Positions 616 to 62,065 of a stretch of DNA of 64,000 bases are shown here, one piece after another. The DNA is taken from the NCBI GenBank assembly GCA_037349105.1, contig JAYJMM010000041.1, forward strand, positions 7,252,501-7,316,500, read 5' to 3'. This stretch comes from Limnomonas spitsbergensis. Lineage: Eukaryota > Chlorophyta > Chlorophyceae > Chlamydomonadales. The notes beneath the pieces were generated by a model, which saw only the letters and a program-made list of their open reading frames with translations, was not told where the DNA came from and did not search any database. How positions within the stretch are numbered: position 1 is the stretch's first letter; every line of letters begins with the position of its first letter. Both the position numbers and the translations under genes were made by a program.

Positions 616-1060
616 CATCTCCCTCACAGGTAAACTCAAAGTGTTCAGTATTAATGCCCCCCCCCCCTCCCCCTCCCCCCCCTCCCCCCCTCCCCCCCTA
701 CAATTGCCTTTCATGGCTCTCTGTCCATTTCTGGTTCTCATTGCTCCCCGTGTCCGTCCCTCCTCCCTCACAGGTCAACTCACCGTGTTCAGTGTCATCA
801 TGTCGTCCATGGAGGATGTCTCCAAAGCATTCCAGTACATCAACGTCAACACGTGAGTGTGATTGCTGGGTTGTGGTGCTGTTTGAAGGGAGGATGCCTT
901 CAAAGCATGGAGGATGTCTCCAAAGTATCCCAGTATGTCAATGTCAACACTTGAGTCAGAAGCTGGGTTGTTGTTGTTGGCAAAGGGAAGATGTCTCTAA
1001 AGCATGAACGCTGTATCTCTAGCTTTTCAGTACATCTACATAAACGCGTGGGTGTGAAGC
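616..1060 (+). repeat. Decayed copies of LMBR1-like exon 774-852 edges on both sides
   Basis: Upstream, near 620-655, 'ctccctcacag' plus a diverged copy of the exon's first ~25 bases is present. Downstream, at about 890-960, there is a copy of the exon's 3' half (ggaggatgtctccaaag... through gtcaacac) in which the donor GTGAGT has become TTGAGT. A weaker copy sits at 985-1060. Direct comparison by eye. Confidence 0.7.
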
Positions 1061-4000
1061 TGGGCTGCGTCTTCACACCACAGCTTGCCTACGCAAAAGG
1101 GAGCTGGGGTGTGCCCTCTGTGAAGTAATAGCATGATCGATAGCGTCACATAAAGGAAGATTTCAGGCAGGCCCATGGGTGCATTTGAATTCCATGTATG
1201 GATGCACTCCTGGCTCAGCAAGCTGTGGGCTGTTGCACGCCCCTGTGCTGGAGTCACACGGTCAGGGGGGATTGGTATGCAGTCTTGCATCTCTGGTGCC
1301 GAGCGAAGTGAGTAGGACCTATGAGATGTCAAGGTAAGCTCACACGAGGGTTTGGAAACTCTGGCAGCATGAGCCCTGGCCGTTTTTTAGAGCACACCTT
1401 CTAGCATCCAGCTTGGTCCCGGCCTGCAGCCAAGGGGGGCCTGTCGTGGAAAGCCATATTGCACGGGCTGCTGGCTTCAGGTCAGTCACACTTCTACCGG
1501 CTTCAAAGCTCACGAAGTTCACCTGGCGGTCCGCGCAGGTTCCTGCCTGGTAGCCCCCCCAGAGCACGTGGCTAAGCCTTGAGCTGAAAATATCACGTTC
1601 CCGTGTGCCCACCTGCCAACTGCTGATCCCTGACCCCTCTCAGGCACCTGCCAGTAATGATTATCTCATCCCCTGTGCAAAAGTAAGGCTGGAGATGAAA
1701 ATAGGCCATTTAACACTTCAACAGCCTGCCCGCCCGATCGCCCCGCCCACCGTCGTCGCCCATTAGCTAGAATCCCTCACCCCAGAATCTCATTTACCCC
1801 AAACCCCTCACCCCAGTATATTAATCACCCCAAACCCCCTCAGGTACCTGCCCGTGGTGCTGGTGATCCACTGCGCCATGGTGGCCCTGGGCATTTGGGA
1901 CCGGCTGCTCAACATGTGTGTCTCCTCGCGATTCAAGTTCACGACACACGATGTGGACGACGAGTATACAGAAAAGGTGGGCTTTGGGGGGAAAAGGGGA
2001 AGGGGATAATGGGACTGCCCTTTGGAACATGTGTCTAATCGCGTTTCCCTCTAATTCACGAAAAGCAACTATCTGGCAATGAGTCCACACGATAATATTC
2101 TTCACGGTCCGCTTGCGTACCCGTGCATACTGTTTTCCTTGAAGGGGATGATATGGTAATATGGTATACTACACTTGATATACTTGGTATAATACACTTC
2201 ATATTTTTAACGGCCTCCCTTCTTGTTAGTAAATAAGGCCTCCAACATATGATAGTCTTTGTTTCGTGTTTTTACAAGTTTCGAAAAATGTTTAATTTTA
2301 TGAAGCCTTCCCCCGCACCTTGCCTTCTGTTCTCACCAGGGCCGGCTGTTGATCCGCAAGGAGCAGGAGGCGACGCTCAAGGGGTTCAAGATCGGAGAGG
2401 TGCTGCACAGCGCCTACTTTGACCTCGAGTTCCCGACCATTGCAAACGCAGGCAGAGGTGAGGCAGGTTCAGAGTACGAGAAGGGGGGGGCGGCCTCGTG
2501 GTGGCATCCGGACCACCTCTTAAACTTAATTTAGCGCATGCTCAAAAAGATAACGTTATTTCAGTCCCTCTCTGAAATTATTTGCATTTTACCCACGCAC
2601 TGACTCTGGCAGTTGGCAATCGCTTGATAAATATGCTCAAATGCATTGTTGATGAGTCGGTTGGATGCCAAGTGCTTGCCTCGACGCTGACTTGACACGT
2701 CACGCGCGGCTGTGGGTGCAGGGCGCAATCAGAAGAAGGGCTTCTTCAGCAGCTTCTTGGGGAAGAAGAAGCTGCCCCCTGCAGCTGCCTCCGCCCCCAA
2801 GGCCCCTCGGCCGCAGTCCGCCGCCACCGTCGCGGCATCCCGCTGGGTGCGGGGCGGCGAGGGGAGCGAGAGCAAGGCCTCATCCCGCGTGGAGGAGGTG
2901 GCAGCGACGGACAACACGACAGCGCTGCTGGCTGCGCGGGTGCGTGTTTGAAAGGATGCTTGGCTTTTGAACTGCTGCCATTGCACACTTGCCTATGTCT
3001 TGAAGGTCCACACATGACGCTGCTGGTAACGTCCGAGCGTGCCCTCCCTCTTGCGGATGCCCATGATGCGCTGCCCCATGCATGGCCTATCCTCCTTTCT
3101 GCTAGTGCCTGCGCTGTGCTGCCCCATGCGCGGCCAACCCTCCTTTCGGATGATGCCCGCTGTGCTGCCCCATGCTGGCCTACCCTCCCTTCTGCTGATG
3201 CCCGCTGCATGGCATACCCTCCCTTCTGCTTAGGCCCCATGCATGGCCTACCCAATCTTCTGCTGATGCCCCATGCATGGCCTACCATTCCTTCTGCTGA
3301 TGCCCCATGCATGGCCTACCCTCCCCTCTGCTGATGCCCCATGCATGGCCTACCCTCCCTTCTGCTGATGCCCCATGCATGGCCTACCCTCCCCTCTGCT
3401 GATGCCCCATGCATGGCCTACCCTCCCCTCTGCTGATGCCCCGTGCAAGGCCTACCCTCCTTTCTGCTGATGCCCTATGCAAGGCCTACCCTCCCTTCTG
3501 CTGATGCCCGCTGCATGGCCTACCCTCCCCTCTGCTGATGCCCGCTGCATGGCCTACCCTCCCCTCTGCTGATGCCCGCTGCATGGCCTACCCTCCCCTC
3601 TGCTGATGCCCGCTGCATGGCCTACCCTCCCCTCTGCTGATGCCCGCGGTATGGCCTACCCTCCCTTTTGCTGATGCCCCATGCATGGCCTACCCTCCCT
3701 TCTGCCGATGCCCGCGGTATGGCCTACCCTCCCTTCTGCTGATGCCCCATGCATGGCCTACCCTCCCTTCAGCTGATGCCCCATGCATGGCCTACCCTCC
3801 CTTCTGCTAATGCCCCATGCATGGCCTACCTTCCCTTCTGCTGATACCTGCGCTGTGCTGCCCCATGCTCGGCCGACCCTCCTTTCGGCTGATGCTCGCT
3901 GCATGGCCTACCCTCCCTGCTGCTGATGCCCGCTGCGCCGCCCCATGCATGCAGTACGACCAGGGCGGAGCAAGCGGTGCTGTCGCCTCCTCCTCGGCGC

Positions 4001-8737: not shown

Positions 8738-14826
<6,089 letters not shown>

Positions 14827-16830: not shown

Positions 16831-17289
16831 GTAACTGCCAAGAGCGCCATTGCGGTTTCTGCATGCATACAATTTACTGCTGACGTTACACCTTTGGGCC
16901 CTGCTCTTCAGGCTCGGCCGCCTGCGTGTCCAGAGCCCGTCCAGGGCCCGTCTGGAAGTCCCATTCCCCCGCACAAGAACACGCCCTCATGCTAGCGCGG
17001 TTCATGGTGTGCGCCAGAAGCGCCCGCCGCAGATCTTTGTTCATCATTGGCGGGGTCACTGGATAAATTGTGATGCCAGGTACCAACATTTCTAGCCAAG
17101 ACAGAATTTCCATGGCAAGGAAAATACTTGCCTGTGCGAGCGGGGAGGGGGGCAAATAATAGCAGGGGTAAAGAAAAACATCACCCAAAGTTGTAGAGCC
17201 TGACAAGAACATTCCAAATCTGGTCTTGAATCTGTATTTTGGCTTGGGAGAATTTGAAGAGGGAGGACCACTTGTGTCTGACACATGTA

Positions 17290-17400
17290 AGATCAGGGCC
17301 CAGAGGTGTAACGTCATTGGCTTGTCAATGACATAACGCCTCTGGGCCCTGCTCAAATAAGGCTCGGCCGCGTGGGCGCCTAACTAAAGAGTTGGGAGTA
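17290..17400. repeat. Dispersed repeat family A, head-to-head palindrome
   Basis: gggcccagaggtgtaacgtc followed by attggc-tt-gtcaat and gacataacgcctctgggccc forms an inverted repeat with almost no spacer. It continues into aaggctcggccgcgtgggcg and a purine-rich tail. This is the best copy of a family seen about 18 times in the window. Confidence 0.85.
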
Positions 17401-17570
17401 GAGATGGAAAGAAACACAGAAGGGGGCAGGACAAAAGAACGTGGGAAAAGTGGGGAAAAGTGATGAGACGAAACAAAAGGCTGGAAGACACAAAAAACAA
17501 AGGAAGTTGCAACCACTGAAAAAGTCTACGCCTTAACGATATCTACCACGTCGTCTACAAAGGCCATTGA

Positions 17571-18928: not shown

Positions 18929-21900
18929 ATGCAGACCTCTTTGCTCTGCTCAGCCTTGCTTCTCACCTCTTCATTTTATGCCGTCACCTTGGCAGCGGTG
19001 ATGATGGTCCCGCAGCTAGAACGAGAAGAACTGGAGTCTTCAGAATGCCCCTGCAGCCACAGGCACCTATGCAAACCCATCCAGGGGCACAGCAAGCACG
19101 AGGTACCGGCACATGGGTACTGCTTCTTGAAATACGCACCAGACCGCTTTTGGCAGGCCACTAAGCGGCCACCACTGTATTTATGAGGACCAGACATTGA
19201 TCAGCCTGCAGCCGGTGGGCCAAGCTGCAGGGCATGCAGACCCAGACCCCTACCGCCGTAGGCCGTGATGAGCTCGATTCAAACTGAAGCAACCTACAAC
19301 AAACAGCGCACATGGAGGGCAAACTTGATCAAAATGCACACTTCCAGGCACAACCAAGGCATCATTTTTGCAACGGGCACCCAGAACGATGACAACGATC
19401 AACAGGCATCCGTCGTTTTGCGCTTTCCCGCAATGTGCCATTCAGCTGGTCATGATTCCCCCCCTCTGTGCAGGTATTTGGCTTCTTAGGCCAACAGCCA
19501 TCTGGGGCTGTGCAGGATCGATACGACTTCTCCCAGTTATCAACTGTGGCCTGGACAGAAGACCCAGGTGGGAGTCGCGGAGTCGTCACCCGCATGATGA
19601 AGCTCAATTGCTTGTGCACGTGAGGCTTGAGGCTGTTGACCCTCATTCAGGCAGCCGTTTCCTTTCCATGGATCCTGGAGTACCGTAGTTAGTGATCTGC
19701 AGTAGTGCTCTGGTTTGCTTCATAAATGGTTCGTTGGATCTGCAGAACAATTGCAAAAAACAGTCCTTGCTGTTTGCGATTGCGTCAGTGTGTCCAGCTG
19801 CATGTCCCGACCTGAATCCCCGAACCGCAGAGATCATGTGTCAGGGCAAACCCTCAACCCTAGCCCTTCATCCTAGCCCCCCAACCGCAGAAATCATGTT
19901 TTTGGCAAACGTTTCACCCTGAACCCTAAATCGCAGAGATCATGTGCTATGCCCACTCCAAGGGGACACGCGTGATTGCTGACGGCCGTGAGGGCGTGAT
20001 TGAGGCATTGGCGAGCACTCAGTCCCGCAATCAATGGGTGGGTCTAAGGATTATAGATCAAAGCTACCTGGGCAGCAGTTGTTCCCCCCCACACACCCCG
20101 TGGCTCGGCTACGTTTCAGCTACATATCCTCGAGTCTTGGCCCCTGGCCAGAGGACTCATGCTTGGCCTGCCATGCTGCTTGGGCCTGTGTCTGTAGGCC
20201 GGCCTAGGTTTCGCCGGGTCAGAATCGGGTCTTAGGCAACCTCGGGGAGGCCTGCCCAAGGTGGACTGGTGGCCGAAAAAACGAAACGCTGGGGAAAAGG
20301 ACCCTTCATGCTTCAGACTTGTTTAATTTGTACATGCTGCGCTCACACACTCGTGCGTCCCTGGACCAGTGTGTGTGTGTGTGGAGTCTGTAAGGGGGCG
20401 ACACTAGGCCCTAAACCTCGTTTGTCGAAGTGTCCCCCCCTTGGGAATCTTGGTGTGCAACCACGTCCTGTGGAGGGAATTGATTCCATGACTGGACCAG
20501 TGTGTGTGGAATCTTGGTGTGCAACCACGTCCTGTGGAGGGAATCGATTCCATGACTGGACCAGTGTGTGTGGAATCTTGGTGTGCAACCACGTCCTGTG
20601 GAGGGAATCGATTCCATGACTGGACCAGTGTGTGTGGAATCTTGGTGTGCAACGACGTCCTGTGGAGGGCATCCATTCCATGGCTGGACCAGTGTGTGTG
20701 GAATCTTGATGTGCAACCACGTCCTGTGGAGGGAATCGATTCCATGGCTGGACCAGTGTGTGTGGAATCTTGGTGTGCAACGACGTCCTGTGGAGGGCAT
20801 CCATTCCATGGCTGGACCAGTGTGTGTGGAATCTTGGTGTGCAACCACGTCCTGTGGAGGGCATCCATTCCATGGCTGGACTTCTTCTGTTGTGTCTCTT
20901 AGCAGCTGCAGGGCAGGTCACAAAACCTGACAAGAGTATGACAGGAGTCATGCTCCCAAGGCGTCTTCGGCCTACAGCTGCTTCCTGATTTTCCATGCCC
21001 CCACAGAAGTAAATGTTACATCGCCCAACCTTTGATCATTTTACACCCAACACACAATTGTCCTAAAGTTCAACCTCCTGTACCGTAATTGTTTATCCCC
21101 ATCTTCTGGCGACCAGTTGTCAGTACCTTGCTTTTACATTTTTAATTGCTCTCCTTCCCAGCAAGTTATGTTGCGTGCTCTGACAAATGATCGTTCAGCC
21201 ATAGCGAGTAATCGTTCCACCCCAGCAAGGAACCAGTCGTCGTTCTACCCCATTTCCCAGATTCTGGACGCAGTGAGACAGGCCAAGGCTAACCACCTGG
21301 ATGGAATCAACTTTGACCTCGAAATCCCAGCAAAGGTGAGAGGTGCTGGTGTTTGCTGACGGTAAGATTGGTACCTTCATGCGTGGAAAAGTCACCGGCC
21401 CTTTCTGAACACATGCCAGGGGCAGTGCCAGGGGATACGGGTTTAGGGTTTCTGAACACCTGCCAAGGTAAATGCCTGGGGATAAGGTCAGGCCATCACT
21501 CCCACTTACGTACATTGAAGCAACCTTGGACAGACGGCGCTGTACACCTGCCGAACATTGTCGGAAGGGACAAGGCGCTACCGAATTGTCGCTTTGCATT
21601 CTCGTAGGACTCGATTGTAAAACATTTTGCTCGCTGTACATTTTCATACAACTCCAACGAATGCCTGATTTGCTTTTCCTGTGTGCTCGCACCTGTTAGG
21701 TGAACTCTGCATTGTCCAAGAGCTACTCCGCCCTCGTCAGCCAGGCCGTGGAAATCTTCCACCGTCACATCTCAGGCTCACAGGTGATCCGGGGTTGGAG
21801 ATCCGGATCCGGAAATCTTCCACCATCACATCTCAGGCTCACAGGTGATCTGGGGTTGGAGATCCGGATCCGGAAATCTTCCACCGTCACATCTCAGGCT

Positions 21901-29160: not shown

Positions 29161-29199
29161 CTGCTCGTAACCTTGCTATCCTTTCTGTCCTCTTATGCC

Positions 29200-30130: not shown

Positions 30131-30197
30131 TTAGAGCAGGCAAAGCAACTTCAGTTTCTACGTGTGCAGACCTGTCCACCTCCTTCCCTTCTGAGGC

Positions 30198-46300: not shown

Positions 46301-46309
46301 CTTCGTCCG

Positions 46310-46930
46310 AGCTGGCCTATGGTTAGGGTGTAGACCAGCCACTAGCCCACTGCACACGCACCCGTAGCACAAAAGCTTTTGTCATGGATACGAATGGCCA
46401 GGGTTTGTGGTTAATGGTTAAGACCCACCACTAGCCAACTTAAATCTCACTCCGAACACGGTGAATCCGCACATACCCGCATTTGAATGATAACTTATGC
46501 AATGAATTCGCCATGCCCCCCCCCATTGCCTTGTTTAGGGCCTACGGTCCAGAATTTTGAGGCCAGGGTTAATACCGTACCCACAGCACTTTGTCTGCTC
46601 ATTTCTTGATGGTCAAGAGTTTATACCTACCGCCAGCCCACTGCACCCGCACCCGCAGCATGGCGATTCTTCATGGATGTCAATGACCAAGGTTTATGGT
46701 TTAAGGGTTTAGACCCACCACAACCCCTCTGCACCCACACCCGCAGCACAGTCCCTCTTCATAGTTGTCAACTGCCAAGGTCTATGGTCTAAGGCTTTAG
46801 ACCAACCACAACCCCACAACTCTACTGCACCCGCACCCGCAGCAAGGCGATTCTTCATGGATGTCAATTGCCAAGGTTGACGGTAAATGATTTAGACCCA
46901 CCACTAGCCCACTGCACCCGCACCCGCAGC
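46310..46930 (-). repeat. Tandem copies of the last readable calpain exon's 3' edge
   Basis: On the minus strand the block 'atagacattcatgaagaatc' followed by 'gctgcgggtgcgggtgcagt' and a 'taaaccataaacc' type spacer repeats about six or seven times with unit ~80-90 bp. The exon's own end at about 46950-46927 is the first copy. Repeated LAIDIHEES frames result. Confidence 0.85.
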
Positions 46931-49900
46931 ATGGAGATTCTTCATGAATGTCTATGGCCAGGTCGTCCCAGCCGGTGGTACGGAAGCAGAAGTCCAGGTT
47001 CTGCACAAACCAGCAGCAACGCATGTTTTGTCACATTTCAGCCACATTTCAGCTACATTTCACCTATATTTCAGCAACATTTCAGCAACATTTTGGCTCC
47101 TGGCCAGGGGCCTTATGCGAGGCTTCACATGCTGCTTGGGCCTGTGCTTTACCCAGACACGGATTGACCTCAACCCAGCAGTCGGCCTCTGCGGCGCAAC
47201 CCACCAAACCCTCCTCCTCCTCATATGCACCCACACCTGGCAGATGCCCCATCTGCACCCACCTGGTAGTACTGGCAGAAGTCCGTGAAGTCCATCCAGA
47301 ACATGCCATCATCAGCGGCCAGGAAGTCACACGCCTTGGCCACCTGAGGGGGGTCAGCAGGAGGGGCACACAGGGGATCAGCCAGGTCTGAGGGGCCATA
47401 TCATGTGGATGAGGGCTCAGCTTTCAAATGGCAAGGGGCGTCTCTCTGCCTACCTCCCAGTTCTATAGCCACAGATTCTACAACCACAGATTCTACAACC
47501 ACAGATTCTACAACCACAGATTCTATAACCACAGATTCTATAACCACCGATTCTATAGCGACAGATCTAGAACCATAGATTCTATCATCACAGATTCTAT
47601 AACCACAGATGAGGGCCGAGCCTGCAAAGAGGGCCACTGGGGGACTGGGCCGCCACATCAAGTGGCTGGGGGCTCTCAAACGTTGAGAGGCGTTTCTCTA
47701 CCTAGGTGAGGGTAAAGCTTTCAGAGATGAGCTGAGGAGGGCCGAGGCTTTACGAGGGCTACTGTGGGCCATTGGGGAACTAAGCTGCCACACCAAATGG
47801 CTTAGGGCTATCAAACGGCATCAAACGGCTCTCAAATGACATCAAATGGGTCACAAACGGCAAGTGGCTTTTCTTTACCTACCCGAAGGCAAAGCCTCCG
47901 GAGATGAGGGCTGAGGCGTCAATGAGGGCAATTGGGGAGCGGCCACATAGTGTGGTTGGAGGCTCTCAAACGGCAAAACAGGCGTCTCTCTGAGTCTGTG
48001 CCTGAGATCGGAACTCTGTGTGCGGGCAAAGCCCAGGCAGTTTAGTTGCAACAATCGCGACACTGCCACCTTGAGTGCCCTATTTTCTTACAGGCATTAT
48101 AGCCCCCCTCCAGCTGCCTACCTTCGGGTACTGCTTCCACAGAGGAGAGGTGTCGCTCCAGTTGCCTTTCCACTCGAAAGAGCCCCAGGGGTTCCGCAGC
48201 TTGACCAGCTTGAACTGGTCAATCTCCTTGGCCGCAACCACACTGTACGCGTGCCCCTGAAAACAAGAGTCGACATTAGTGAAAGGAAGAAAAGTACGTT
48301 CCCCGCAGGGCCGTGTGAGGGTTAAGGAAAAGTGCGGGATTCCTGAGCTTGACCAGCTTTAACGGGTCAATCTCCTTGGCAGCGACCACGCTGTACGCCT
48401 GCCCCTGCAGACGAGAGGCGAACATGACATAATCAAGAAAAAAAGGGCGTGAGGGTTAGGGAAACAGTGCGGCGTGGAAACAGCGAGGCCGCGGCTGCGC
48501 CGTTACCATGTAAATGAATGCATGGGGAGACAGCAAAGGAACTTTGTCAGTCAGGCAGCAGGGGGATCCATACAGCTGTAAGACAGGCCAGCAGGGGTAT
48601 ATACCCACCTTGCTGGCCGGTCCGGTAGCAGGGCAGGCAGCAGGGCAATCAGTCTGCTGAGTATAGCCCTGCTGCCTGACTGCCCTGCTGGCCTGTCCGG
48701 CAGCAATAATCTGAACAGCTGTCAGTCAGGCCAACAGGGGTATATGCCCACCTTGCAGGAAACGTTTGTCAGTTCTCCGCCTACCCGGGGTATACAAGGT
48801 TGGATATTACCAAGAACACGATTCTCGGATTGCTTTGTTGAGATTCGTTGCAGATTTCGAAGTAGAAAAAAACAATGCCCCGAGAGCGCAAGATGTGCTC
48901 ATGACCCTGAACCCCTCTAGCGCATTAGACATCTAACCAGCTCAACTCGCCTGTATTCAGCGGGGGACAGCGGGCGAAATGCGTGCATGCAACTAGGGTC
49001 CCCCTATGGGAACCAAAGGTGACCCAAATTATACCCACCCTGCGTACCTGTCTCTGCCATCACAGCATGCAGGGTACATGTTGATTACTAATTACAATTA
49101 TATGCTAATTAGCATGTACTTAATTTCTTGTTTACAATTACACTCACCCTACGTCCTTGCCTCTGCCATCACAGCATGCAGGGTACATAATTATACCTAC
49201 CACCAGTAATTACAACGCATTCCTTATTAATTGAATATAACACATCCATGCTCAGCATCCCGCCGCTGCCTTCAGGGCGCTTCAGCTACAATGCCTCAAC
49301 ATCACAGTGCGCCATCAGCGGGAGGCCTGGTGCAGCAAGCCCTGCTGCTTCGGCCAAGAGCGATAAGCCAGTTAAGATTTTGTGCCAGTTTAGAATCGGC
49401 CCAGTGCTGGCTCCCCGGCTGTCACGACATACGACTGCACCGTGCGTTTGACTGAACATTTGACTGATGTCCTCCTTGTCACTGCCTTGCAGTAGACCAC
49501 ACACTTTGACTGACAGGCTGCTCGGCAGCCACTACTGGACCAATGGGAATTGGGAACCCAACCATGACTGGCATGCGGCCGGAGGTCTGAGCTGCACAAG
49601 GCGTTCCTCAGCCCCACCTCCCACCTTCAGCATCCTGATCCAAGCGTCCACCACCCACCCGCACGATCCCGTTGATGTTCTCCTGGTCACTGCCTGCCCC
49701 AGTGGATACTTGGAATGGACAATTGGTGTGCAAACAGAGACCGAATGGCCTAGTTGGGAATATCGGCGTCCCCTGCAACTCGAGTGCCCTTCCATCGTAG
49801 GGGCATAAAAGCCCCAGTTATACGCAACGCTAATCATTCCCACCACCCGCCTGCACGATCCCGTTGATGTTCTCCTTGTCACTGCTGGGCAGCAGACCAC

Positions 49901-52900
49901 TAACTGTGGCAGCCACCACTGGGCCAAGGTGGACCCGACCTTGACCAGCCCACGGCCAGTGGCCCAAGCAGCAAGAGCTGCAAAAAGTGCACCTTACCAT
50001 CACCATCCACCTGCAGCATCCTGTTCCATGCGCTCACCACCCACCTGCACGATCCCGTTGATGTTCTCCTTGTCACTGCCTGCCCCAGTGGACGCGCCCA
50101 CCACGCTGCGCTGCCTCGTGTAGAACACGAGCGTCTCAAACATGTCATCGTGGCTCAGCACGTCGGTCGACGGCTGCAGCATGATCTTCCCGTTCTTGTC
50201 CTTGGGGTGAACCAGATCGTAGCGCTTCCAGGAGGGCGCCTGATGAGGGCGTGTAGGGATGAGGGTTTATGGGGGCGTGCAGGCGTGGAGGGCGGAGCTC
50301 AAACACAAAGCCAACATTTGTTGCTTATTGCTGCAGCATGATCTTCCCGTTCTTGTCCTTGGGGTGAACCAGGTCGTAACGCTTCCAGGAGGGCACCTGA
50401 TGGGGGGCGTGCAGGCGTGGAGGGCGGAGACAATCCATAAAGACAGAATGTGTTGCTTGTTGCTGCAGCTTCATCTTTCCGTTCTTGTTCCTGGGGATGC
50501 ACTAGGTGGCAGCTTCCAGGCGGGCGCCTGATGGGGCCATAAGGACGTGCAGGCTTGAAGGGCGGGGCATGCAAGGAAAAGCAAATCGTCTTGGTCCATA
50601 TATCCTGGGGGTGGACCAGATGGTTGCACTTCCAAGAGGGCGTCTGATGGGGGCGTGAAAGCATGAAGGGCAGGGCATGGAAAAAACATGATGTTGCGTT
50701 TATTGATGCAGCGTGAAATTCCGTACCCTGTCCCGTGGGGATGCACCAGACCCCCGACGCTTCCAGGCAGAAGGGCGCCTGACGGGGGGTTGCAAGCGTG
50801 AAGGGCGAGGCGTACATGCACGAAAGCACAAGTTCTGTCTCTTTCTGAAGAGCGTGATTATTTCCCGTTATTTCGTCCTTGGGATCTACCAGGTCCCAAC
50901 CCCTCCTGGAGGGCGCCTGATGCGGGGCGCGAGCACGTGTGAAAGGCGCGCCATGAAATAATGGATACACACGCACTGGCAAAGCTGCTTCAATGCTGCT
51001 GCAGCGTCAAGGCGTCAACATAGGAGCTTCTCACGGGCATGGCATGGCATGGCATGGCAGGACATGGCAGTGCATGGCAGTGCATGGCAGTGCATGGTAG
51101 GACAGGACATAGTGACAGGGCAGGGCAGGGCAGGGCAGGGCAGGGCTGGGCTGGGCAGGGCAGGGCAGGGCAGGGCTGGGCAGGGCAGGGCAGGGCAGGG
51201 CAGGGCAGGGCAGGGCAGGGCAGGGCAGGGCAGGGCAGGGCAGGGCAGGGCAGGGCAGGGCAGGGCAGGGCAGGGCAGGGCAGGGCAGGGCAGGGCAGGG
51301 CAGGGCAGGGCAGGGCAGGGCAGGGCAGGGCAGGGCAGGGCAGGGCAGGGCAGGGCAGGGCAGGGCAGGGCAGGGCAGGGCAGGGCAGGGCAGGGCAGGG
51401 CAGGGCAGGGCAGGGCAGGGCAGGGCAGGGCAGGGCAGGGCAGGGCAGGGCAGGGCAGGGCAGGGCAGGGCAGGGCAGGGCAGGGCAGGGCAGGGCAGGG
51501 CAGGGCAGGGCAGAGACAATTCCTTCTTTCCTCTCAGCCTCCCTAGTCCCCGCCCCATTAGCAGTCCCTTGCCACCCGAGCGCATCACCAGGCTCGCCAG
51601 AGTGGAAGAAGATACTGTTCAAGTGATGCTGCAACGACAGGGCATCCACCTAAACCCTAAACCCTCATACCGTTTCATTGATGCTGCAAGGACAGGGCAT
51701 CCACCTAAACCCTAAACCCTCATACGATTTCATTGATGCTGCAAGGACGGGGCATCCACCTTATCCCTAAACCCTCATACCGTTTCATTGATGCTGCAAG
51801 GACAGGGCATCCACCTAAACCCTAACACCGCTTCATTGATGCTGCAACAACAGGGCATCCACCTAAACCCTAAACCCTCATACCGTTTCATTGATGCTGC
51901 AAGGACAGGGCATCCACCTAAACCCTAAACCCTAACACCGCTTCATTGATGCTGCAAGGACAGGGCATCCACCTAAACCCTGTACCCTAACACCGTTTCA
52001 TTGATGCTGCAAGGACAGGGCATCCACCAAAACCCTGTACCCTAACACCGTTTCATTGATGCTGCAAGGACAGGGCATCCACCAAAACCCTAGACCCTAA
52101 TACCGTTTCATTGATGCTGCAAGAACAGGGTATCCACCTAAACCCTAATACCGTTTCATTGATGCTGCAAGGACAGGGCATCCACCTAATCCCTAAACCT
52201 TAACACCGTGTCATTGATGCTGCAACGACAGGGCATCCACCTAAACCCTGTACCCTAACACCATTTCATTGATGCTGCAAGGACAGGGCATCCACCTAAA
52301 CCCTGTACCCTAACACCGTTTCATTGATGCTGCAAGGACAGGGCATCTTCTAAACCCTAGACTCTAATACCCTTTCATTGATGCTGCCAGGACAGGGCAT
52401 CCACCTAAAAGCCAGCTGCCACTGGGCCAGGCAGTGCCAACCCGGGCAACAGAGAAAAGCGTTTCCTCTTTCCTCTCAGCCTCCCTAGCTCCTGCCTGCA
52501 GTCCCATGCTACCCGAGCACACCACCAGGCTGGTCAGAGTGGTAGCTAACACTGTCCTTTCTAATCCTGAACCTGCCCTGAGCTCTGCCCCTCAGACTCG
52601 GCCCCAGAGTTTCTTCTTTAGTCCGAAGCAAACGACCTTTCGGGGCCACCGGGCGGTCTCCTCCACACAAATGTGGACCAAACCTGGCCTGGCCCGCAGG
52701 CGACAGCTGGTGGCTCTAGCGGCGAGTACCCTCCGCCGCAAGCCATACTGTGGCTAAATTGTAGCTGAAAGCCATAATGTGGCTGAATTGTAGCTGAAAT
52801 ACGAGTGGAAAAAAAATAGCCGGTGCTTTGCGCCATGGTGGAACTGCACACTTGTGTGAATGCACCTGCGGCGAGCCCTCCAGCTTGAACTTGAAGACGT

Positions 52901-55900
52901 AGTTGCCCGTGAGGCATTCAAAAGCCCACAGGGAGCTCCCTCCGTCCAAATTGTGGAACGAGCCCTGATCAGGACATGAGCAAGAAGCATACAAGGGGGA
53001 AGATCATCTAAGCGATTCAAAAACAGAAGCAGCAGTCATCTAAAGCTCATAGGGAGCTTCCTCCGTCAAAGTTGTGGAACGACGCCTGATCAGGACATCA
53101 ACAAAGGGGGGCCCATCTGAGCCATTTATAGACAGAAGCAGCACTTCCCCAAAGCCCCTAGGGAGCCCCCTCCCTCCAAGTTGTGGAACGACTCCTGATC
53201 AGGACATCAGCCAAGAGCATAACAAGGGGAAGATCATCTGAGTGATGTTAAGATAAAAGCAGCACTTTCCCAAAACCCCTAGGGAGTTTCCTCCCTCCAA
53301 GTTGTGGAACAACGCCTGATCAGAACAAGAGCAAAGAGCACAACAAAGGGAGGCCCATCAGAGCGATTTACAGACGGAAGCAGCGCTGCAGGCTCGTCCA
53401 AAGCCCGTAGGGAGCTCCATTGATCTAGGTTTTTGAACCCTTGAACCCTTGATAAGCACATGGCAAGGAGCACAAGGGGAGCAGATTGCTAACACTCATG
53501 CATAACAATTCCCTGATCAGAACATGCTATATGGGGCACAGGGGGGGAAAGAGTGTGAACACAAGTGTGAGACGATCCCGGGTCGGGACAAGCAAATGGG
53601 CACAAGCGGAGGCACATCACAGTGGTTGACCGACAGCAGCAACGCTCGTTGTAAACATGTTCCTCCGCTAGTTACAGGCAGCGGCAGCAGCAGTCGAATA
53701 TTCAAAACAAATTTGCTCTGCTACGGGTAACATTCCAGTGACCTATCTGCACCCCGACAAGGTCTGGCGGCCTTGATTACACGTCCACACTAGTTCACAC
53801 TGTTGGCTCCTGAAAAAAAAACATCCATGGTGCAGCCCAGGGGGTGCAGCCCAAGTCTTACAAGCTCTAGATCTGCCAAAAACATCGGCAAACCCTCTGG
53901 GTGTATCTATGCACGCACAGACATATTTCTGTTATGCCTGGGCAGACCATCTGGATGGATCTAGCACAGATCAACCCAGGTCATGCCTGGGCAGACCATG
54001 TTGAGAGATCTGTAACAGATCTACCCAGGTAATGCCTGGGCAGACCATGTTGAGAGATCTATAACAGATCAACCCAGGTAATGCCTCGGCAGACCATGTT
54101 GAGAGATCTATAACAGATCAACCCAGGTAATGCCTGGGCAGACCATGTTGAGAGATCTATAACAGATCTACCCAGGTAATGCCTAGGTAGACCTTCTGGA
54201 CGGATATATAACAGATCTATCCAGCTAGTGAGTGGGTAGACCATCTGGACAGATCTAGTGCAGATCCACCCAGGTGGTGCCTGGGCAGACCATCTGGGCG
54301 GATCTAGAACAGATCTATCCAGTTAGTGAGTAGGTAGACCATATGGACAGATCTAGCGCAGATCCACCACCCAGGTAGTGCCTGGGCAGACCATCTGGAC
54401 AGATCTAGCACAGATCTGCTAGGTGGTGCCTGGACAGACCATCTGGACGGATCTATAACAGATCTATCCAGTTAGTGAGTGGACAGACCATATGGACAGA
54501 TGTAGCGCAGATCTACCCAGGTAATGCCTAGTTAGACCATCTGGACGGATCTAGCGCAGAACTACCCAGGTAGTGCATGGGTAGACCGTCTGGACGGATC
54601 TAGCACAGATCTACCGAGGTAATGCCTGGGCAGTCCATCTGGACAGATCTAGCGCAGATCTACCCTGATAGTTCTTGGGCAGACCGTCTGTGCGGATCTA
54701 GTAAAGATCTGCCAGATAGTGCCTGGACAGATTACTGCCCACATTGAGACCTATCAATAGGCATGAATTCTTCGTCATTCCTGGGATCCATCCTGCCTGA
54801 GGTTTCCTGTCGGCAACTACAGTCACCTGCATCTTCGACACATGATTTAGGGTGTATCAGCTACAGTTCAGCTACATCACAGCCTTCGGCAATAGGTGCC
54901 TGGAGCTGCAAGGTGCCAGCTGCTTGGCCACCGGCCATTGTCCTGTCAAGGTTTGGTCCCCAACAGTCCAGCGGTGGCTGGCCATCGGCTTGCAAATGGT
55001 GGTATTGTGCTCACTCGTCCCTTGCCACTGCTCGTCTCTAAACCAGTGATTTTGTTTTGCCTACGCATCTACCTTCGGCGGGTCACTACGAGGCCGCAGA
55101 AGGTGCGATTGGGGCCAAAACCTGACAAGCTTACAGATAGAGGCCCAAGCAGCATGGCTGGCGGTACATGAGGCCTGTGGCCGGGGACCAGTCAGTAGCT
55201 GAACTGTAGCCTAACTACACAGAAATAAGATAACCGCTGCTGCTCACCTTGAACTTGGCCATGGCCTTCTCCAGAATCAGGACCCAAGCCTCATCCTTGC
55301 TGGGCTGCGCAAAGCAAGGCTTGATCGAGCCCTTCGTGCACGGGATGTAGTCGTCGACGGCCACCGTCACGAACTTGTTCCGCGGCCGGTCAAACAGGCG
55401 GATGCGGTACTTGCCGTAGGCATTGAACTGATGGCACGGTTGGCAAACAACAAACGGAAGTCGCGTGCTGCTTTGATCAAACAATTACTTTTGGCAATAA
55501 AGCTGCTATCGAGAAATGAAGCTGCCATGCAGATATTCAGCTGCCATGCAGATATTCAGCTGCCATGGGGATATTCTGCTGCCTAGTTTTCTGCTGCCAT
55601 GGAGATATTCAGCTGCCATGCAGATATTCAGCTGCCATGCAGATATTCAGCTGCCATGCAGATATTCAGCTACCATGCAGATATTCAGCTGCTGAATGCA
55701 ATCGTCAGTTGCATGCTGCTTTGGGGCAGCCGCATTCCTCTCTATGCATGCTGCAGAAAGAAAGAAAGCTACGTCCCGGGGGGGGCGTGAGAGTTAAGGA
55801 AACAGCGCAGCCTGGGCCGAAGCCACATCCACGCCGTTACCGCTGCATGCTGCATCTCTACTGAGCCACGGTTATGTGTATCAAGCTCCTCTCGCCCGGA

Positions 55901-58236
55901 GAGGAGTGCACACTGCACGACTCAAGTGTCCACACTCTGTCAGCGAGCGATCGAAAGACAAATTTGATCAATTGATGGCCTGCAAGTGCAAGACCAGGCT
56001 TGCAAGAGCCTTGAATCGTGACCATGCAGCAGGTGCGACCCACCTCCCTAGTGAGAAAGGCAAGCTGGATCGCCCCATCGATGGGGGCGAGGCAGGCCAG
56101 TGCGCTCATGAGCCAGCAGTCCCCCAGCTGCCCCTGGCAAATGTCTGAAGGCTCGATCTTGCCTGCGAGCAAACAGACATCAGAAGCTGGCAATGGCAAA
56201 TGTCTGAAGGCTTGATGTGGCCTGCGAGCAATCAGACGCCAGCAGCTGGCAATGGCACATGTTACAATTTACGGCCCCTGTCCTGACCACTTTATTCGGA
56301 ATGTATGAGGGCTCGCTTATCTTGCCTGCTATGAACCTGACATCAGACAGTAATGAAAAGGGCGTCTGGACTCTGTTTTTTCCTGGCTGAGGGCTGAGGG
56401 CACTGGATCATTTATGTGAGAATTCTGAGCGCTAGGTCAGAGGGTTAAAGAATTGGGTAAACCCTTTACTTTTCGTCTGGACTCTGTTTTGGCCTGGCTG
56501 AGGGCTGAGGGCACTAGATCATTTATGTGTGGATTGTGAGCACTAGGCCAGAGGGTTTAAGGTTTGCGTAAACCCTTAACTTTTTGTGTGGGCACAAGGC
56601 CTAATGCCGCCACTTTGTATCTCGGGGGGCGCCCCTGACAGCCACCATGCCTGGCATGGGCAAAGAATGATATAAAGGAATCCATTCCTCGAGGGCGAGA
56701 GGGTTCAGGAGTGCGGCACGGGCCGGCTGGCATGAACAGGCCCCTGTGCAGGTCCTAGCCGAAGCACAGAGATAGGGAGATCACAGGACCCAACTGCTGG
56801 CACAGGACAGGGTTTTGGTGCTTTCGTACACTCCTCGAGCTCAGGCTCTCCAGCAAACGGATGCAAATGCTTTCTATGCAATTAAAGAGCGCTCCGATGA
56901 CAATTCCCCCAAAACCATTTGAAAGAGTGCCAGTTGGGAGCTGTGTTGCCCTCCCTTTGATGAAGAACAACTACCGAGTCATCCATGGACCCAGTCCCAT
57001 GCACCATCCATGCACCATCCATGCACCCAGTCCCATGCACCATCCACGAACCCAGTCCCATGCACCATCCTTGCACCCAGTCCCATGCAACATCCATGCA
57101 CCCAGTCCCATGCACCATCCATGCACCCAGTCCCATGCACCATCCTTGCACCCAGTCCCATGCAACATCCATGCACCCAGACCCAAACACCATCCATGCA
57201 CCCAGACCCAAACACCATCCATGCACCCAGTCCCATGCACCATCCATGCACCCAGACCCAAACACCATCCATGCACCCAGTCCCATGCACCATCCTTGCA
57301 CCCAGTCCCATGCACCATCCATGCACCCAGCCCCATGCAACATCCATGCACCCAGACCCAAACACCATCCATGCACCCAGTCCCACGCACCATCCATGCA
57401 CCCAGTCCCATGCACCCAGTCCCATGCACCCAATCTCACGCACCATCCGCCCCAGACCCATGCACCATCCATGCACCCAAAACCATGCACCATCCATGCA
57501 CCCAGTCCCATGCACCATCCATGCACCCAGTCCCATGCACCATCCATGCACCCAGTCCCATGCACCATCCATGCACTCAGACCCATGCACCATCCATGCA
57601 CCCAGTCCCATGCACCATCTATGCACACAGGCCTATGCGCCATCCATGCACCTAGTCCCATGCAACATCCATGCACCAGGCAGGATCAGAGGACGCAGCC
57701 CCCCTGCACTAGTTACGGTATCAGCCGTCATACCTGTCTCATATGCTAGTTAGCTTCTGAGGGGGCGACCTAGGGCCTACAGGCTACAGGAGCATGAGCT
57801 GCAGCATCGCTTCTTATAACATGCTTTGGCAGCAATTTAGCTACACAGTTGCTGATGGACGAGGGGACTGGTGCAGCTAACCCTGCTGCTCGGGCCACCG
57901 GCGGCAGGCCTGTCAAGGTTTGATACCCAATGGTCTAGTGGTGGCTGCCCCACAGCCCCGTAAGGTGGTGTGGCGCACACAGACAGAAACACTGGCAGCA
58001 ACTTGACTGTGACATGTAGCCTGGGCCTGCAGCTGCTTACCTGAAAATAGCTTTGCTCCAGTTTGGCCCCCTCTCGCACAAATCTGATCGATGCGCTTCC
58101 TGAAATTCGAATTCAAGCGAAGCCCAAGTGAGGTCAGGGCTGGAGTGCTTCCCGAAGGAAGCGTGACAGACTTTGGGTTGGCTGAGTTATAGGAAGGCGG
58201 TGCAAGACAGAAGTCTTTCCCAATTGCACCCACCAT
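46927..58236 (-). CDS. Calpain-type cysteine protease, catalytic region in at least eight exons
   Basis: A calcium-dependent intracellular protease family. Minus-strand exons: about 58099-58041 (frame open back to 58236), 56162-56044, 55427-55248, 52964-52866, 50239-50045, 48256-48122, 47343-47263 and 47000 to about 46927. Phases join without a break. The catalytic triad is intact: Cys in SDICQGQLGDCWLMSALACL, His in GHAYSVVAAK and Asn in VKLRNPWGSFEWKGNWSD. Other family landmarks are YGKYRIRLFDRPRNKFVTVA, DDYIPC, DEAWVLILEKAMAK, DGGSSLWAFECLTG and DDGMFWMDFTDF. The last readable exon (NLDFCFRTTGWDDLAIDIHE) resembles the region after the protease core in algal and protist calpains. The true N- and C-terminal exons were not found; introns are up to 2.6 kb and almost wholly repeats. 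Confidence 0.9.
47460..47610. repeat. 15-bp tandem repeat, about 10 copies
   Basis: The unit is 'cacagattctacaac' or 'cacagattctataac'. It is intronic, between calpain exons 48256-48122 and 47343-47263, and open in one frame because 15 is a multiple of 3. Confidence 0.95.
48330..48480 (-). repeat. Decayed copy of calpain exon 48256-48122 upstream of it
   Basis: The segment 'gagcttgaccagctttaacg' 'ggtcaatctccttggcagcg' 'accacgctgtacgcctgccc' copies the first ~75 bases of the exon (GHAYSVVAAKEIDQFKLVKL becomes GQAYSVVAAKEID.LKLVKL), including the acceptor side. The flanking intron (gtgagggttaaggaaa / gtgagggttagggaaa) is duplicated too. Confidence 0.9.
48540..48760. repeat. Local inverted and direct repeats around 'gccagcaggggtatat'
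   Basis: 'aggccagcaggggtatatac' 'ccaccttgc' (48588-48615) recurs as 'aggccaacaggggtatatgc' 'ccaccttgc' (48727-48756). Between them, gcagggcaggcagcagggca and its inverted counterpart tgcctgactgccctgctggc can pair. Confidence 0.7.
49465..49920 (-). repeat. Decayed copies of the calpain exon 50239-50045 3' edge and donor
   Basis: The block 'cacctgcacgatcccgttga' 'tgttctccttgtcactgcc' (exon end plus donor on the minus strand) recurs at about 49850-49895, 49655-49700 and, weaker, 49465-49500. Confidence 0.9.
49905..49990. repeat. Family C core copy
   Basis: Reads 'gccaaggtggacccgacctt' 'gaccagcccacggccagtgg' 'cccaagcagcaagagctgca'. It lies between two copies of the exon edge. Confidence 0.6.
50240..50960 (-). 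repeat. Five successive decayed copies of the calpain exon 50239-50045 acceptor and 5' edge
   Basis: Blocks of ~100-130 bp containing 'atcttcccgttcttgtcctt' 'ggggtgaaccaggtcgtaac' 'gcttccaggagggcacctga' occur at 50332-50435, 50460-50560, 50590-50680, 50700-50800 and 50860-50950. Similarity to the exon falls stepwise with distance. The minus-strand acceptor CATCAG|GC is retained in most copies. Confidence 0.93.
51112..51513. repeat. (GGGCA)n pentanucleotide tract, about 80 copies
   Basis: About 400 bp of uninterrupted GGGCA (TGCCC on the transcribed minus strand), with GGGCT interruptions only at the left end (51140-51180). It is preceded by a diverged ggcatggcat/ggcagtgcat stretch from 51038. 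It lies inside a calpain intron. Long ORFs on both strands across it are artefacts. Confidence 0.98.
51620..52400. repeat. Tandem array of ~60-bp units carrying CCCTAAA strings, about 13 copies
   Basis: The unit is 'tttcattgatgctgcaagga' 'cagggcatccacctaaaccc' 'taaaccctcataccg', with some units short by one CCCTAAA. The 51620 and 50985 ends share 'gctgcaacgacagggc' / 'gctgcagcgtcaaggcgtc'. Confidence 0.95.
52660..52805. repeat. Family C copy with duplicated 3' tail
   Basis: Contains 'tgtggaccaaacctggcctg' and ends 'gtggctaaattgtagctgaa' 'agccataatgtggctgaatt' 'gtagctgaaatac': two copies of the GTGGCTnAATTGTAGCTGAA tail. Confidence 0.7.
52965..53475 (-). repeat. Four decayed copies of calpain exon 52964-52866 acceptor and 5' edge
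   Basis: 'gggagctccctccgtccaaa' 'ttgtggaacgagccctgatc' 'aggacatgagc' (exon start plus acceptor, minus strand) recurs near 53045-53100, 53155-53215, 53280-53335 and 53405-53465. The spacing is about 120 bp. The exon start GGCTCGTTCCACAA appears as GGCGTCGTTCCACAA or similar in the copies. Confidence 0.92.
53930..54735. repeat. ~49-60-bp tandem array in a calpain intron, about 15 copies
   Basis: The unit is 'agatctacccaggtaatgcc' 'tgggcagaccatctggacgg' 'atctagcac'. Every unit contains one or two AGATCT palindromes and CCAGGTAATG, a donor-like AGGTAA. Confidence 0.93.
54850..55215. repeat. Two family C copies in opposite orientation
   Basis: 54860-54990 starts 'cagctacagttcagctacat' and runs to 'gtcaaggtttggtccccaac'. 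55080-55210 ends 'tagctgaactgtagcctaac' 'tacacagaaataa'. The pair forms a loose inverted repeat. Confidence 0.6.
55510..55695. repeat. 19-bp tandem repeat, about 9 copies
   Basis: The unit is 'cagctgccatgcagatatt', with one rearranged unit near 55565-55600. It is intronic in calpain, upstream of exon 55427-55248. Confidence 0.93.
56165..56350 (-). repeat. Decayed copies of calpain exon 56162-56044 acceptor
   Basis: 'ggcaaatgtctgaaggcttg' 'atgtggcctgcgagcaatca' 'gacgccagcagctggcaatg' at 56192-56250 copies the acceptor (ctgcgagcaaacagacatca) and first coding bases. A weaker copy is at 56300-56345. Confidence 0.88.
56370..56600. repeat. ~113-bp direct duplication with telomere-like ends
   Basis: 'gtctggactctgtttt' through 'gggtttaaggtttgcgtaaa' 'ccctt' occurs twice, at about 56364-56475 and 56477-56590. 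Confidence 0.85.
56980..57680. repeat. 25-bp tandem repeat, about 28 copies
   Basis: The unit is 'catgcaccatccatgcaccc' 'agtcc', with a variant (acccaaacaccatcc) interspersed in blocks near 57180-57370. It is open in all frames on both strands, so the 250-residue His/Pro- and Trp/Gly-rich ORFs here are artefacts. Confidence 0.97.
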
Positions 58237-58359
58237 TCAACTTCTTGATCTATCTGGGCGGGTGACTTGTTATTCCAAGGTCCAATCGATGTTGCGTTGG
58301 CTGCAGGAGTGGAGCAGGATCGGTTCAGGATTAGAAAAGGAAGCACAACATTCATCGAA

Positions 58360-59244: not shown

Positions 59245-59525
59245 TCAACTCTCCCATGCACCTGTCGCATGGAAGATGTATGAAGCTTGAGAGCCAGTGT
59301 TGTAGGCTTGTGCATATGCCTCAGATTTGAACATGCGGCAAAAGGACTGAAAGACAGCTGAAGCACGGCCTTGCTGGGCATGCAGACGCTGTAACTGAAA
59401 CAGCTGTACCTGGGAAGCTTTTGTCTTTGAACGTGCAATTGCAGCAGACGCACAGGCCACAGGCCAGACCTCGGACGAGCCTTTGCAAATATACGAAGAT
59501 GCATCCAAAGAAGTAGATCCTGCAC
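59245..59525 (-). other. Possible coding exon, unrecognised
   Basis: A minus-strand frame reads with balanced amino-acid use and helix-like spacing (...SKTKASQVQLFQLQRLHAQQ...). It could be an upstream exon of the calpain gene or of another gene. No motif was recognised, and neighbouring frames are also open. Confidence 0.2.
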
Positions 59526-59539
59526 AACGACGCGGCGGT

Positions 59540-60760
59540 CATGGGTTCTGTTTGAAATGTGCTTTGATCATGACTGTGTCGCCGTCACTTGCCAGGTCGC
59601 TTGAACTGGTAGAATTATTGGGCAGAAGATCGTCTTGAGGAGGCACATGCCGAAGCCCATTCTTGCTAGGTTCGTTAAATAGACGACCTGCGGCCAGCAA
59701 CCTTCGACCACCCTGCTTCGACCTCTACCAGATGTATACCATCAAGGAAATTCAAACTTTAGCAATGCTTATTCTGAATAGCCTTGGGGTAACGCTAACG
59801 GATCGATGTCTCACAGACTCACAATCCCGGTGAATCCCGGCTCACACACTTGGGACCGGTAGTTGGTACCGTTAGGTGCAATATGAAAGGGTCACCTGGC
59901 GGGACCTCCCGAGCTCCGAGGTGGTACGGATCCCTTTTGATGCTGCTAAAGACAGCACTCGGGTACAGAGACCTTAGGCACCGACCGAGCAAGAAACAGG
60001 CTGGACAGTAGTTGGGTTTTTCTACTGGAGGTTAATCAGCAGATATTTTTAGTACGATAACTCCGTATCCTATGTCCTCATGTCCATGGCTTCTGGAGTG
60101 AATCTTGATGGACCAAGTTGGCAGGGTACCAACCCCACCAGGCTGATCATAGGCAGTGTTGTAGCTAGCATTTCAGCTTAAACACGCTTACTCAACAGCT
60201 ATGGAGACTAAAAAACTACACCGCAGTCAAGGGAGGTAGAAAGGCCTACACACAAACAACTGTTGGACGCCGACGCGGCCGAGCCTTTACAGCATGGCCC
60301 AGTGGTGTGCCGTCATTGACACAAACAGCTGCTTCATCATGGTACGACCTGATCATACTGGTACGGTTCGACAATCTTGCAAGCAAGAATATTGCTGACA
60401 TGTCGCAACATAGAAAAGTAACCGTGACTGAAACGGTCGGGATATAATGTTATATCACGAATACGGGAATATACTGTGCCAAGATTCAAAAATTAAATGC
60501 TACCTCCAGGCAGATGTAGAAAATGGGCCCATGCAGGTGATCCCAATCTACCAAAGTTTACTAAGGTTTCAGTACCATACATGGTGGTGCGGCTCCAATT
60601 GCATACATTATTTTTATTTGCTTGCATCTCAGAGTTTCAAGGGTTGCGCAGCCAGCCTCACACTAAGGTAGGTCCAAACAAAAGGATACGCTGACTGTCC
60701 GACTGAGAATCAAACTAATGCTGAAGTTCAATTTTTCTGCCCCAATATCACAACGGATAA
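59540..60760. other. Region with no supported gene
   Basis: Holds one family-A copy at 60260-60325 (gacgccgacgcggccgagcc, tttacagcatggcccagtgg). Nothing else was recognised. Confidence 0.4.
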
Positions 60761-60763
60761 CCA

Positions 60764-60911
60764 TCGGAAGCGCTGCTGCCTCCCTCCTCGTTATCTTTGA
60801 ACATGCGGAGGACGGCCAGGTCGTGCATGGCATCCGCACCCATCAGCTCCACACTGTACGGGGTCGTGTTGCCTGCTGCGTCAGTGACCACCACTACCAC
60901 CACTAGGTGAC
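60764..60911 (-). CDS. Exon of a probable Deg/HtrA-like serine protease
   Basis: After an acceptor TGCAG the minus strand encodes GHLVVVVVVTDAAGNTTPYS then VELMGADAMHDLAVLRMF. This matches the Deg/HtrA stretch in which a beta-strand and surface loop lead into the catalytic Asp motif (VxLxDGxxYxAxVVGxDxxxDLAVLxI); the Asp in HDLAVL would be the triad Asp. Deg proteases act in chloroplast, mitochondria or secretory compartments as quality-control enzymes. The exon end is uncertain; a donor ATG|GTTATC near 60764 is possible. Neighbouring exons (His and Ser motifs) were not found. A candidate upstream exon near 62150-62230 could not be joined in phase. Upstream lies a long array of copies of this exon's start. 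Confidence 0.5.
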
Positions 60912-62065
60912 CTGCACTCAGGTTACAGTGAGCAGCAGTGCACACCTTAGGGTGCTTCAGCTACATTTCAGCTATTAACTTGTGACAGCCGGGGGGCCGT
61001 CAGTTATGACCACCTAGGTGACCTGCACTCAAGTCACTGTGAGCAGCAGAGCACATCTTAGGGTGCTTCAGCTACATTTCAGCTTAAAAACGGCTGATGG
61101 ACGGGGGGCCTGCTGCGTCAGTGTTGACCACCTAGGTGACCTGCACTCAAGTCACAGTGAGCAGCAGAGCACATCTTAGGGTGCTTCAGCTACATTTCAG
61201 CTTAAAAACGGCTGATGGACGGGGGGCCTGCTGCGTCAGTGTTGACCACCTTGGTGACCTGCACTCAAGTCACAGTGAGCAGCAGAGCACATCTTAGGGT
61301 GCTTCAGCTACATTTCAGCTAAAAAACGGCTGATGGACGGGGGGCCTGCTGCGTCAGTGTTGACCACCCTGGTGACCTGCACTCAGGTTACAGGAAGCAG
61401 CGGTGCACATCTTAGGGTGCTTCAGCTACATTTCAGCTTAAAAACGGCTGATGGACGGGGGGCCTGCTGCGTCAGTGTTGACCACCTTGGTGACCTGCAC
61501 TCAAGTCACAGTGAGCAGCAGAGCACATCTTAGGGTGCTTCAGCTACATTTCAGCTAAAAAAACGGCTGATGGACGGGGGGCCTGCTGCGTCAGTGTTGA
61601 CCACCCTGGTGACCTGCACTCAGGTTACAGGAAGCAGCGGTGCACATCTTAGGGTGCTTCAGCTACATTTCAGCTTAAAAACGGCTGATGGACGGGGGGC
61701 CTGCTGCGTCAGTGTTGACCACCTAGGTGACCTGCACTCAAGTCACAGTGAGCAGCAGAGCACATCTTAGGGTGCTTCAGCTACATTTCAGCTAAAAAGC
61801 GGCTGATGGACGGGGGCCTGGTGCGTCAGTGAAGACCACCTTGGTGACCTGAACTCAGGTTACAGTGAGCAACAGTGCACATCTTAGGGTGCTTAAGCTA
61901 CACTTCAGCTAAAAAACGGCTGATGGACGGGGGGCCTGGTGCGTCAGTGATGACCACCTTGGTGACCTGCACTCAGGTTACAGGAAGCAGCGGTGCACAT
62001 CTTTAAGTACTTCAGCTACATTTAGGGTGCTTCCGCTACATTTCAGCTAAAAATCGGCTGGTGGA
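60912..62065 (-). repeat. ~118-bp tandem array seeded by the Deg-like exon's acceptor and start
   Basis: About nine copies of a unit containing 'tgctgcgtcagtgttgacca' 'ccttggtgacctgcactcaa' 'gtcacagtgagcagcagagc' 'acatcttagggtgcttcagc' 'tacatttcagcttaaaaacg' 'gctgatggacggggggc'. On the minus strand each starts like the exon: CTGAGTGCAG|GTCACC, then GTGGTCA..CTGACGCAGCAGG. The spacer equals the start of family C (ttcagctacatttcagct..ggctgatggacggggggcct), so a family-C piece was amplified with the exon edge. Confidence 0.93.

Follow-up and report, generated by a model that had tools for sequence, protein, structure and literature searches.

Copies of exon edges in the introns of a green alga: a probable by-product of local tandem duplication

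Genes at the locus

We analysed a 64 kb stretch of contig JAYJMM010000041.1 from Limnomonas spitsbergensis (hereafter the window; 54% G+C), in which introns carry short, decayed copies of the edges of the exons that they adjoin. Its sequence marks the window as nuclear and as belonging to a chlamydomonadalean green alga. Over 100% of its length the predicted V-ATPase B protein shares 96% identity with its counterpart in Chlamydomonas eustigma, and no higher identity occurs among the best 120 of 7973 matches listed; the top-scoring of the matches listed is a longer Brassica protein (86% identity), and C. eustigma is the nearest algal match. The calpain and the chitobiase also find their best matches in C. 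eustigma (87% and 67% respectively).

Exons were placed by GT/GC-AG borders and reading phase, with family motifs as a guide, and the placements were checked afterwards. The V-ATPase B gene comprises 11 exons in one open frame on the minus strand (14826-9320), its last few residues being unplaced, and its intron 2 (14610-14487, minus strand) is a GC-AG intron. The chitobiase model has exons K1-K7 (plus strand, 21252-26508) and the calpain model exons C1-C7 (minus strand, 56162-46924); aligned with the C. eustigma proteins, the two show no gaps at 12 of 12 exon junctions. A Deg-like exon gives a weak match to Pfam Trypsin_2 (E value 0.005, or 0.075 with the exon alone), and the end of this exon was placed without homology.

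The three modelled genes are linked here (9320-56162), and their C. eustigma counterparts carry nearby gene numbers and are assigned to a contig of the same size (612,668 bases). The three C. eustigma genes therefore appear to lie on one contig, with the neighbourhood conserved.

Copies of exon edges in adjacent introns

For each edge, 25 bases of exon joined to 15 of intron served as the query, which was scored against shuffled introns. The 47 edges comprised 44 from the 22 introns of the three models and three positive-looking edges whose intron has an open end (calpain C1 5′, calpain C7 3′ and Deg 5′); these three were chosen post hoc and are excluded from the frequency test given below. 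Fourteen of the 47 edges reach z ≥ 5, and exon sequence alone finds a match in the adjacent intron at 12 of the 47 (z 8.1-23.9 against shuffled introns). The exon-edge copies are confirmed as real. The 3′ edge of V-ATPase B exon 8, which is counted among the positives, has only its intron sequence repeated (exon-only z 0.1). A thirteenth edge with exon copies, the start of V-ATPase B exon 9, has four that reach no more than 8-9 nt into the exon; two of these match at E 0.013. The 5′ edge of exon K6 is negative (z 0.4, with the query placed at 24329 and the final exon start at 24322). The edges, and the arrays that accompany them, are listed here by window coordinates.

21700..21783, plus strand: chitobiase exon K2; copies of 3′ edge and donor at 21811-21956 and 21872-21963, with 34 exon nt
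22156..22272, plus strand: chitobiase exon K3; copy of 3′ edge and donor within 22307-22475, with 24 exon nt
22667..22755, plus strand: chitobiase exon K4; copies of 3′ edge and donor at 22829-22883, 23110-23274 and 23219-23323, with 27-36 exon nt
23708..23886, plus strand: chitobiase exon K5; copy of acceptor and exon start at 23557-23621, 95% identical, with 39 exon nt
24322..24419, plus strand: chitobiase exon K6; copy of 3′ edge and donor at 25034-25096, 649 nt downstream, with 35 exon nt
24968-24985, plus strand: weak K6 match of 18 nt, without the junction
56044..56162, minus strand: calpain exon C1; copies of acceptor and exon start at 56185-56262 and 56300-56347 (post hoc edge)
52866..52964, minus strand: calpain exon C3; four copies of acceptor and exon start within 53039-53479, with 44-47 exon nt
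50045..50239, minus strand: calpain exon C4, start; five copies of acceptor and exon start within 50330-50926
50045..50239, minus strand: calpain exon C4, end; three downstream copies of the 3′ edge, 49841-49885 (donor GC in place of GT), 49589-49706 and 49465-49487 (without the donor)
48122..48256, minus strand: calpain exon C5; copy of acceptor and exon start at 48336-48421, with 69 exon nt
46924..47000, minus strand: calpain exon C7; copies of 3′ edge and donor within 46606-46873 and a match at 46342-46369 (post hoc edge, open intron end)
10808..10937, minus strand: V-ATPase B exon 9; four decayed copies of acceptor and 8-9 exon nt at 11082-11112, 11258-11278, 11382-11418 and 11572-11587
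60754..60911, minus strand: Deg-like protease exon; its start is the last unit of a 118-bp array (post hoc edge)
60899..62023, minus strand: 118-bp tandem array of 9.6 units, with nine copies of acceptor and Deg-like exon start
10127..10781, minus strand: intron-only 40-bp array in V-ATPase B intron 9, immediately beyond the donor, with about 16 units; exon edge unrepeated
53934..54731, minus strand: intron-only 49-bp array of 16 units in the interior of calpain intron 2

Together these give 40 alignments at 13 edges in four genes (V-ATPase B, chitobiase, calpain and the Deg-like exon). There are one to nine copies per edge, with 8-69 exon bases and 72-98% identity to the exon edge, and 38 of the 40 alignments span the junction, so that nearly all include the splice site. 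The first-pass annotation, made from the sequence alone, had described the copies in this way and had placed them in six genes. Four of the six stand. The other two, annotated as LMBR1 and LTV1, gave no match to the expected Pfam families in a search that covered part of the window's reading frames, and both were excluded; a stretch of some 40 nt that is matched upstream of 41501, in an unchecked gene model, would fit the LTV1 claim.

The copies are local and in the same orientation, again as first described. Among matches with E ≤ 1e-3 outside the queries, 35 of 36 share the orientation of the query and fall within the adjacent intron, and none is inverted; the remaining match is on the same strand, just past the set limit of 500 nt. 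Both kinds of edge are used (at z ≥ 5 in the 44-edge set, donor-side edges in 6 of 22 cases and acceptor-side edges in 5 of 22). The shift to the nearest copy is 58-194 bp at 12 of the 13 edges, and the nearest junction-spanning shift is a multiple of three at three of the 13 (126, 87 and 153 bp), a chance-like proportion. Copying of whole exons, as in internal gene duplication, was not seen, the deepest exon inclusion among the 13 edges being 69 nt.

A further claim, that similarity falls with distance from the exon, was not borne out. Spearman coefficients are negative for five of the seven edges with at least three copies, none of them convincing, and a steady fall is seen only at K4, an edge with three copies. 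Distance-dependent decay was accordingly rejected.

We also considered whether the copies record the birth of introns, either by tandem duplication of an AGGT-containing segment (the Rogers model) or from introner-like elements. Calpain intron 6 (262 bp) does show similarity between its donor and acceptor sides (p < 1/300, uncorrected for 22 tests), but the other 21 of the 22 introns lack it (p 0.07 or more), and the edge copies lie inside long introns, away from the opposite splice site. For introners, only six short matches between introns were found among the 22, none of them end to end, and edge matches are confined to their own neighbourhood. Apart from calpain intron 6, neither form of intron birth shows its expected marks in these 22 introns; both were rejected, and we regard this origin as very unlikely.

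Exon edges compared with intron interiors

The first-pass annotation attributed the copies to a process aimed at exon edges. Edge frequency was examined at 34 edges of the 17 introns that have interior windows, with each intron's own interior rate as the expectation; ten edges of five introns too short for interior windows (66-136 bp), all ten negative, were left out. Of 696 interior 40-mers, 314 have a local duplicate at z ≥ 5. At the same threshold 11 of the 34 edges are duplicated, against 12.65 expected (ratio 0.87, 95% bootstrap interval 0.42-1.53), and the edge-to-interior ratio ranges from 0.81 to 1.05 across six thresholds. Edges are not measurably special, and within this window their copies are no commoner than those of random intron segments.

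A profile across the boundary, drawn from the 16 introns of at least 300 bp, gives the same picture. Duplicated 40-mers make up 11 of 32 at the junction and 123 of 416 between +15 and +195 in the intron. Inside the exon they number 9/30, 7/30, 3/30 and 2/29 at centres from 15 to 60 nt, and 0/57 at 75 nt or more. Within the intron, then, the duplicated share stays level, and on the exon side it dwindles over roughly the first 70 nt.

These data bear on the possibility that duplication is targeted at exon-intron borders, for instance by breaks at splice sites or by transcription-coupled events that copy the exon edge. Such a process would account for exon-only matches at 12 of 47 edges, for as many as nine copies at a single edge and for the fairly uniform depth of copied exon considered below. 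Against it stand the lack of any excess of edges over interior, the flat profile across the border and the several arrays that are wholly intronic. We think that targeting of this kind is unlikely.

Tandem duplication across the window

Local repetition is a property of the window at large. Among 2559 40-mers covering the whole window, 23.8% are repeated locally in direct orientation and 2.1% in inverted orientation (z ≥ 6). Direct repeats are found for 258 of 644 intron 40-mers, 21 of 84 that straddle a border, 323 of 1697 in other DNA and 7 of 134 in exons, the exon class including the Deg-like exon and an unverified open reading frame (41501-42679). The corresponding counts for inverted repeats are 15/644, 0/84, 39/1697 and 1/134. 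Tandem Repeats Finder covers 26% of intron bases, 13% of other bases and 5% of exon bases. The earlier view that tandem duplication supplies much of the intron sequence agrees with these counts. As in minisatellites, the copies lie nearby and in the same orientation, and they occur independently of borders (with a ratio interval that reaches 1.5).

Other repeats were noted as well. An array of about 95 copies of (GGGCA)n occupies 51035-51513, inside calpain intron 3. There are also 48 intervals with non-local or inverted self-matches, many of about 50-150 bp (for example 17283-17430, 27936-27989, 34991-35082, 35920-36002 and 36247-36445). Rfam and tRNA searches of the window revealed no known RNA or tRNA element behind the repeats.

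Divergence of the copies from their exons

If the exon is constrained by its coding function and the copy is free, mismatches between the two should accumulate at some rate d at the first two codon positions and roughly twice as fast (2d) at third positions and in the intron part. The mismatches at positions 1, 2 and 3 are 43/460, 36/459 and 86/456 (9.3%, 7.8% and 18.9%), and those in the intron part 432/2949 (14.6%). Position 3 differs from positions 1 and 2 with a Fisher p of 9e-8, related copies being treated as independent. Positions 1 and 2 together hold 79 mismatches, compared with 73.6 predicted from half of each edge's intron rate with the copy alone free to change. This pattern fits a constrained exon and a freely decaying copy, and the copies match the remnants expected from tandem duplication across exon-intron boundaries; in both respects the first-pass annotation was sound.

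The same divergence bears on the explanation that the copies are false duplications introduced in assembly. Between copy and exon edge the divergence is 2-28%, and it follows the codon-position pattern; the copies are therefore not identical stutters of the assembly, and we give an artefact almost no credence.

A model for the origin of the copies

The explanation that we favour, and consider probable, is local tandem duplication that is blind to exon boundaries, with the events that disrupt exons purged; the exon-edge copies would be the share of these duplications that happens to cross a border. The mutational process would consist of repeated short, local tandem duplications in non-coding DNA, and further rounds would build minisatellite-like arrays. 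Replication slippage or end-joining repair may be the source; extracts of PMC8226300 describe homologous recombination as very rare in Chlamydomonas reinhardtii. A duplication that covers a donor would yield the order exon, donor, copy, donor, and splicing at the first donor would preserve the mRNA; at acceptors the arrangement would be the mirror image. We infer that splicing uses the site closest to the exon. Because use of the site next to the exon body would leave the mRNA unchanged, an event that straddles the border should be tolerated, the exon-side copy remaining under coding constraint while the intron-side copy drifts. Duplications inside exons would presumably be removed by selection. 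Introns would in this way lengthen through ordinary tandem duplication.

The copies may then serve as a countable footprint of intron lengthening. Because the exon side is constrained and the copy is free, each border-crossing duplication could be dated against its own exon, and it would reveal which splice site was kept. If the frequency seen here, with exon-only copies at 12 of 47 edges, is true genome-wide, the alga would lend itself well to measuring the tolerance of splicing for intact decoy sites nearby.

Points against the model

Several observations weigh against a boundary-blind process followed by free decay. As to the process, the interval of the edge-to-interior ratio extends to 1.53 at z ≥ 5 and spans 0.46-2.06 at z ≥ 10, which allows a modest preference for edges. 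The depth of copied exon is clustered at 24-69 nt at 12 of the 13 edges, with one edge at 9 nt (Kolmogorov-Smirnov p 0.053 for 12 edges with hand-entered units), as the targeted process would also have it. The length of an intron correlates only weakly with its duplicated share (rho 0.45, p 0.07, 17 introns). Finally, the enrichment towards intron ends given for the tandem repeats of C. reinhardtii and Volvox carteri in the excerpted account of PMC3887541 is missing from the flat profile found here.

As to decay, nine of the 13 edges show the excess at position 3; K2, K4, C4 3′ and the Deg array do not. The copies at K6, C5 and C7 look protein-conserving: they have 3 mismatches in 137 sites at positions 1 and 2, where 12.3 are predicted, and 22 in 67 at position 3, these three edges having been chosen post hoc. 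The C4 5′ edge and the Deg array deviate in the opposite direction, with 46 mismatches against 27.7 predicted. Across the 38 copies that span a junction, one of the 114 splice-site trinucleotide positions is mismatched, a change of GT to GC. Permutations that preserve the dependence within arrays give expectations of 12.1 from codon positions 1 and 2 (P 0.011), of 14.7 from those positions at nearby coding sites (P 0.003) and of 19.5 from nearby intron sites (0/5000); an effect of alignment ends and the small number of independent edges may each contribute to the deficit.

Conservation of this kind is what would be expected if the copies were functional and helped to regulate splicing as decoys or alternative sites (through isoforms coupled to nonsense-mediated decay, for instance), with the AG or GT, and at some edges the coding positions, under selection. 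Both the trinucleotide deficit (P 0.003-0.011) and the avoidance of codon positions 1 and 2 at K6, C5 and C7 point in this direction. So does the calpain model of Haematococcus lacustris: an insert of 11 residues falls precisely on the C3|C4 junction and opens with a valine, as read-through of a donor would produce; it may reflect use of another splice site or an annotation error. Over all 13 edges, however, positions 1 and 2 decay like free sequence, the nearest shift keeps the reading frame at only three, and some other single positions near the junction also have zero mismatches. We hold a function in splicing to be improbable. Given these zero-mismatch neighbours, the short V-ATPase B copies and the few independent edges, the intact splice trinucleotides are only a lead, a possible pointer against pure drift. 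A related proposal, that selection keeps the splice sites of the copies, so that border-crossing duplication would lay down banks of spare sites for alternative or regulatory use and feed splicing diversity, is likewise doubtful on the sequences compared here.

Comparison with known systems

Human introns are reported to have been born from tandem arrays, with matching sequence at both intron ends as the hallmark (Zhuo et al. 2007, PNAS). The likeness to the present case lies in arrays of direct repeats that include splice sites; the difference is that a match at both ends is found, at best, in one of our 22 introns.

Three other systems resemble boundary-blind duplication in part, as far as the excerpted accounts go. 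In potato, a single border-crossing tandem duplication took in the end of an intron, its acceptor and the start of the exon (PMC4974935). The duplicated segment thus spans the same elements as our acceptor-side copies, but that one event made a new intron, whereas here existing introns lengthen and the protein junctions match those of the orthologue. Human genes contain variable internal tandem repeats at exon-intron boundaries (PMC2812944). These too straddle the border, and splicing is affected there; they are recent and variable, and are linked to paralogues from segmental duplication and to alternative transcripts, whereas those in the window are decayed and lie in conserved algal genes.

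The nearest parallel in lineage comes from C. reinhardtii and V. carteri, members of the same algal order, in which tandem repeats are densest in introns, are commoner towards intron ends and have units of 1-50 bp (PMC3887541). The concentration in introns is shared with the window. The units differ, the nearest shifts of our edge copies being at least 58 bp, and exon-edge copies are not mentioned in the extracts of that account. A search of titles and the beginnings of abstracts, with most subscription journals outside its reach, showed no paper among the matches listed that presents copies of exon edges as a recurrent property of a genome. We judge the copies to be a version of known intron tandem repetition with longer units, dense within this window, rather than a new process.

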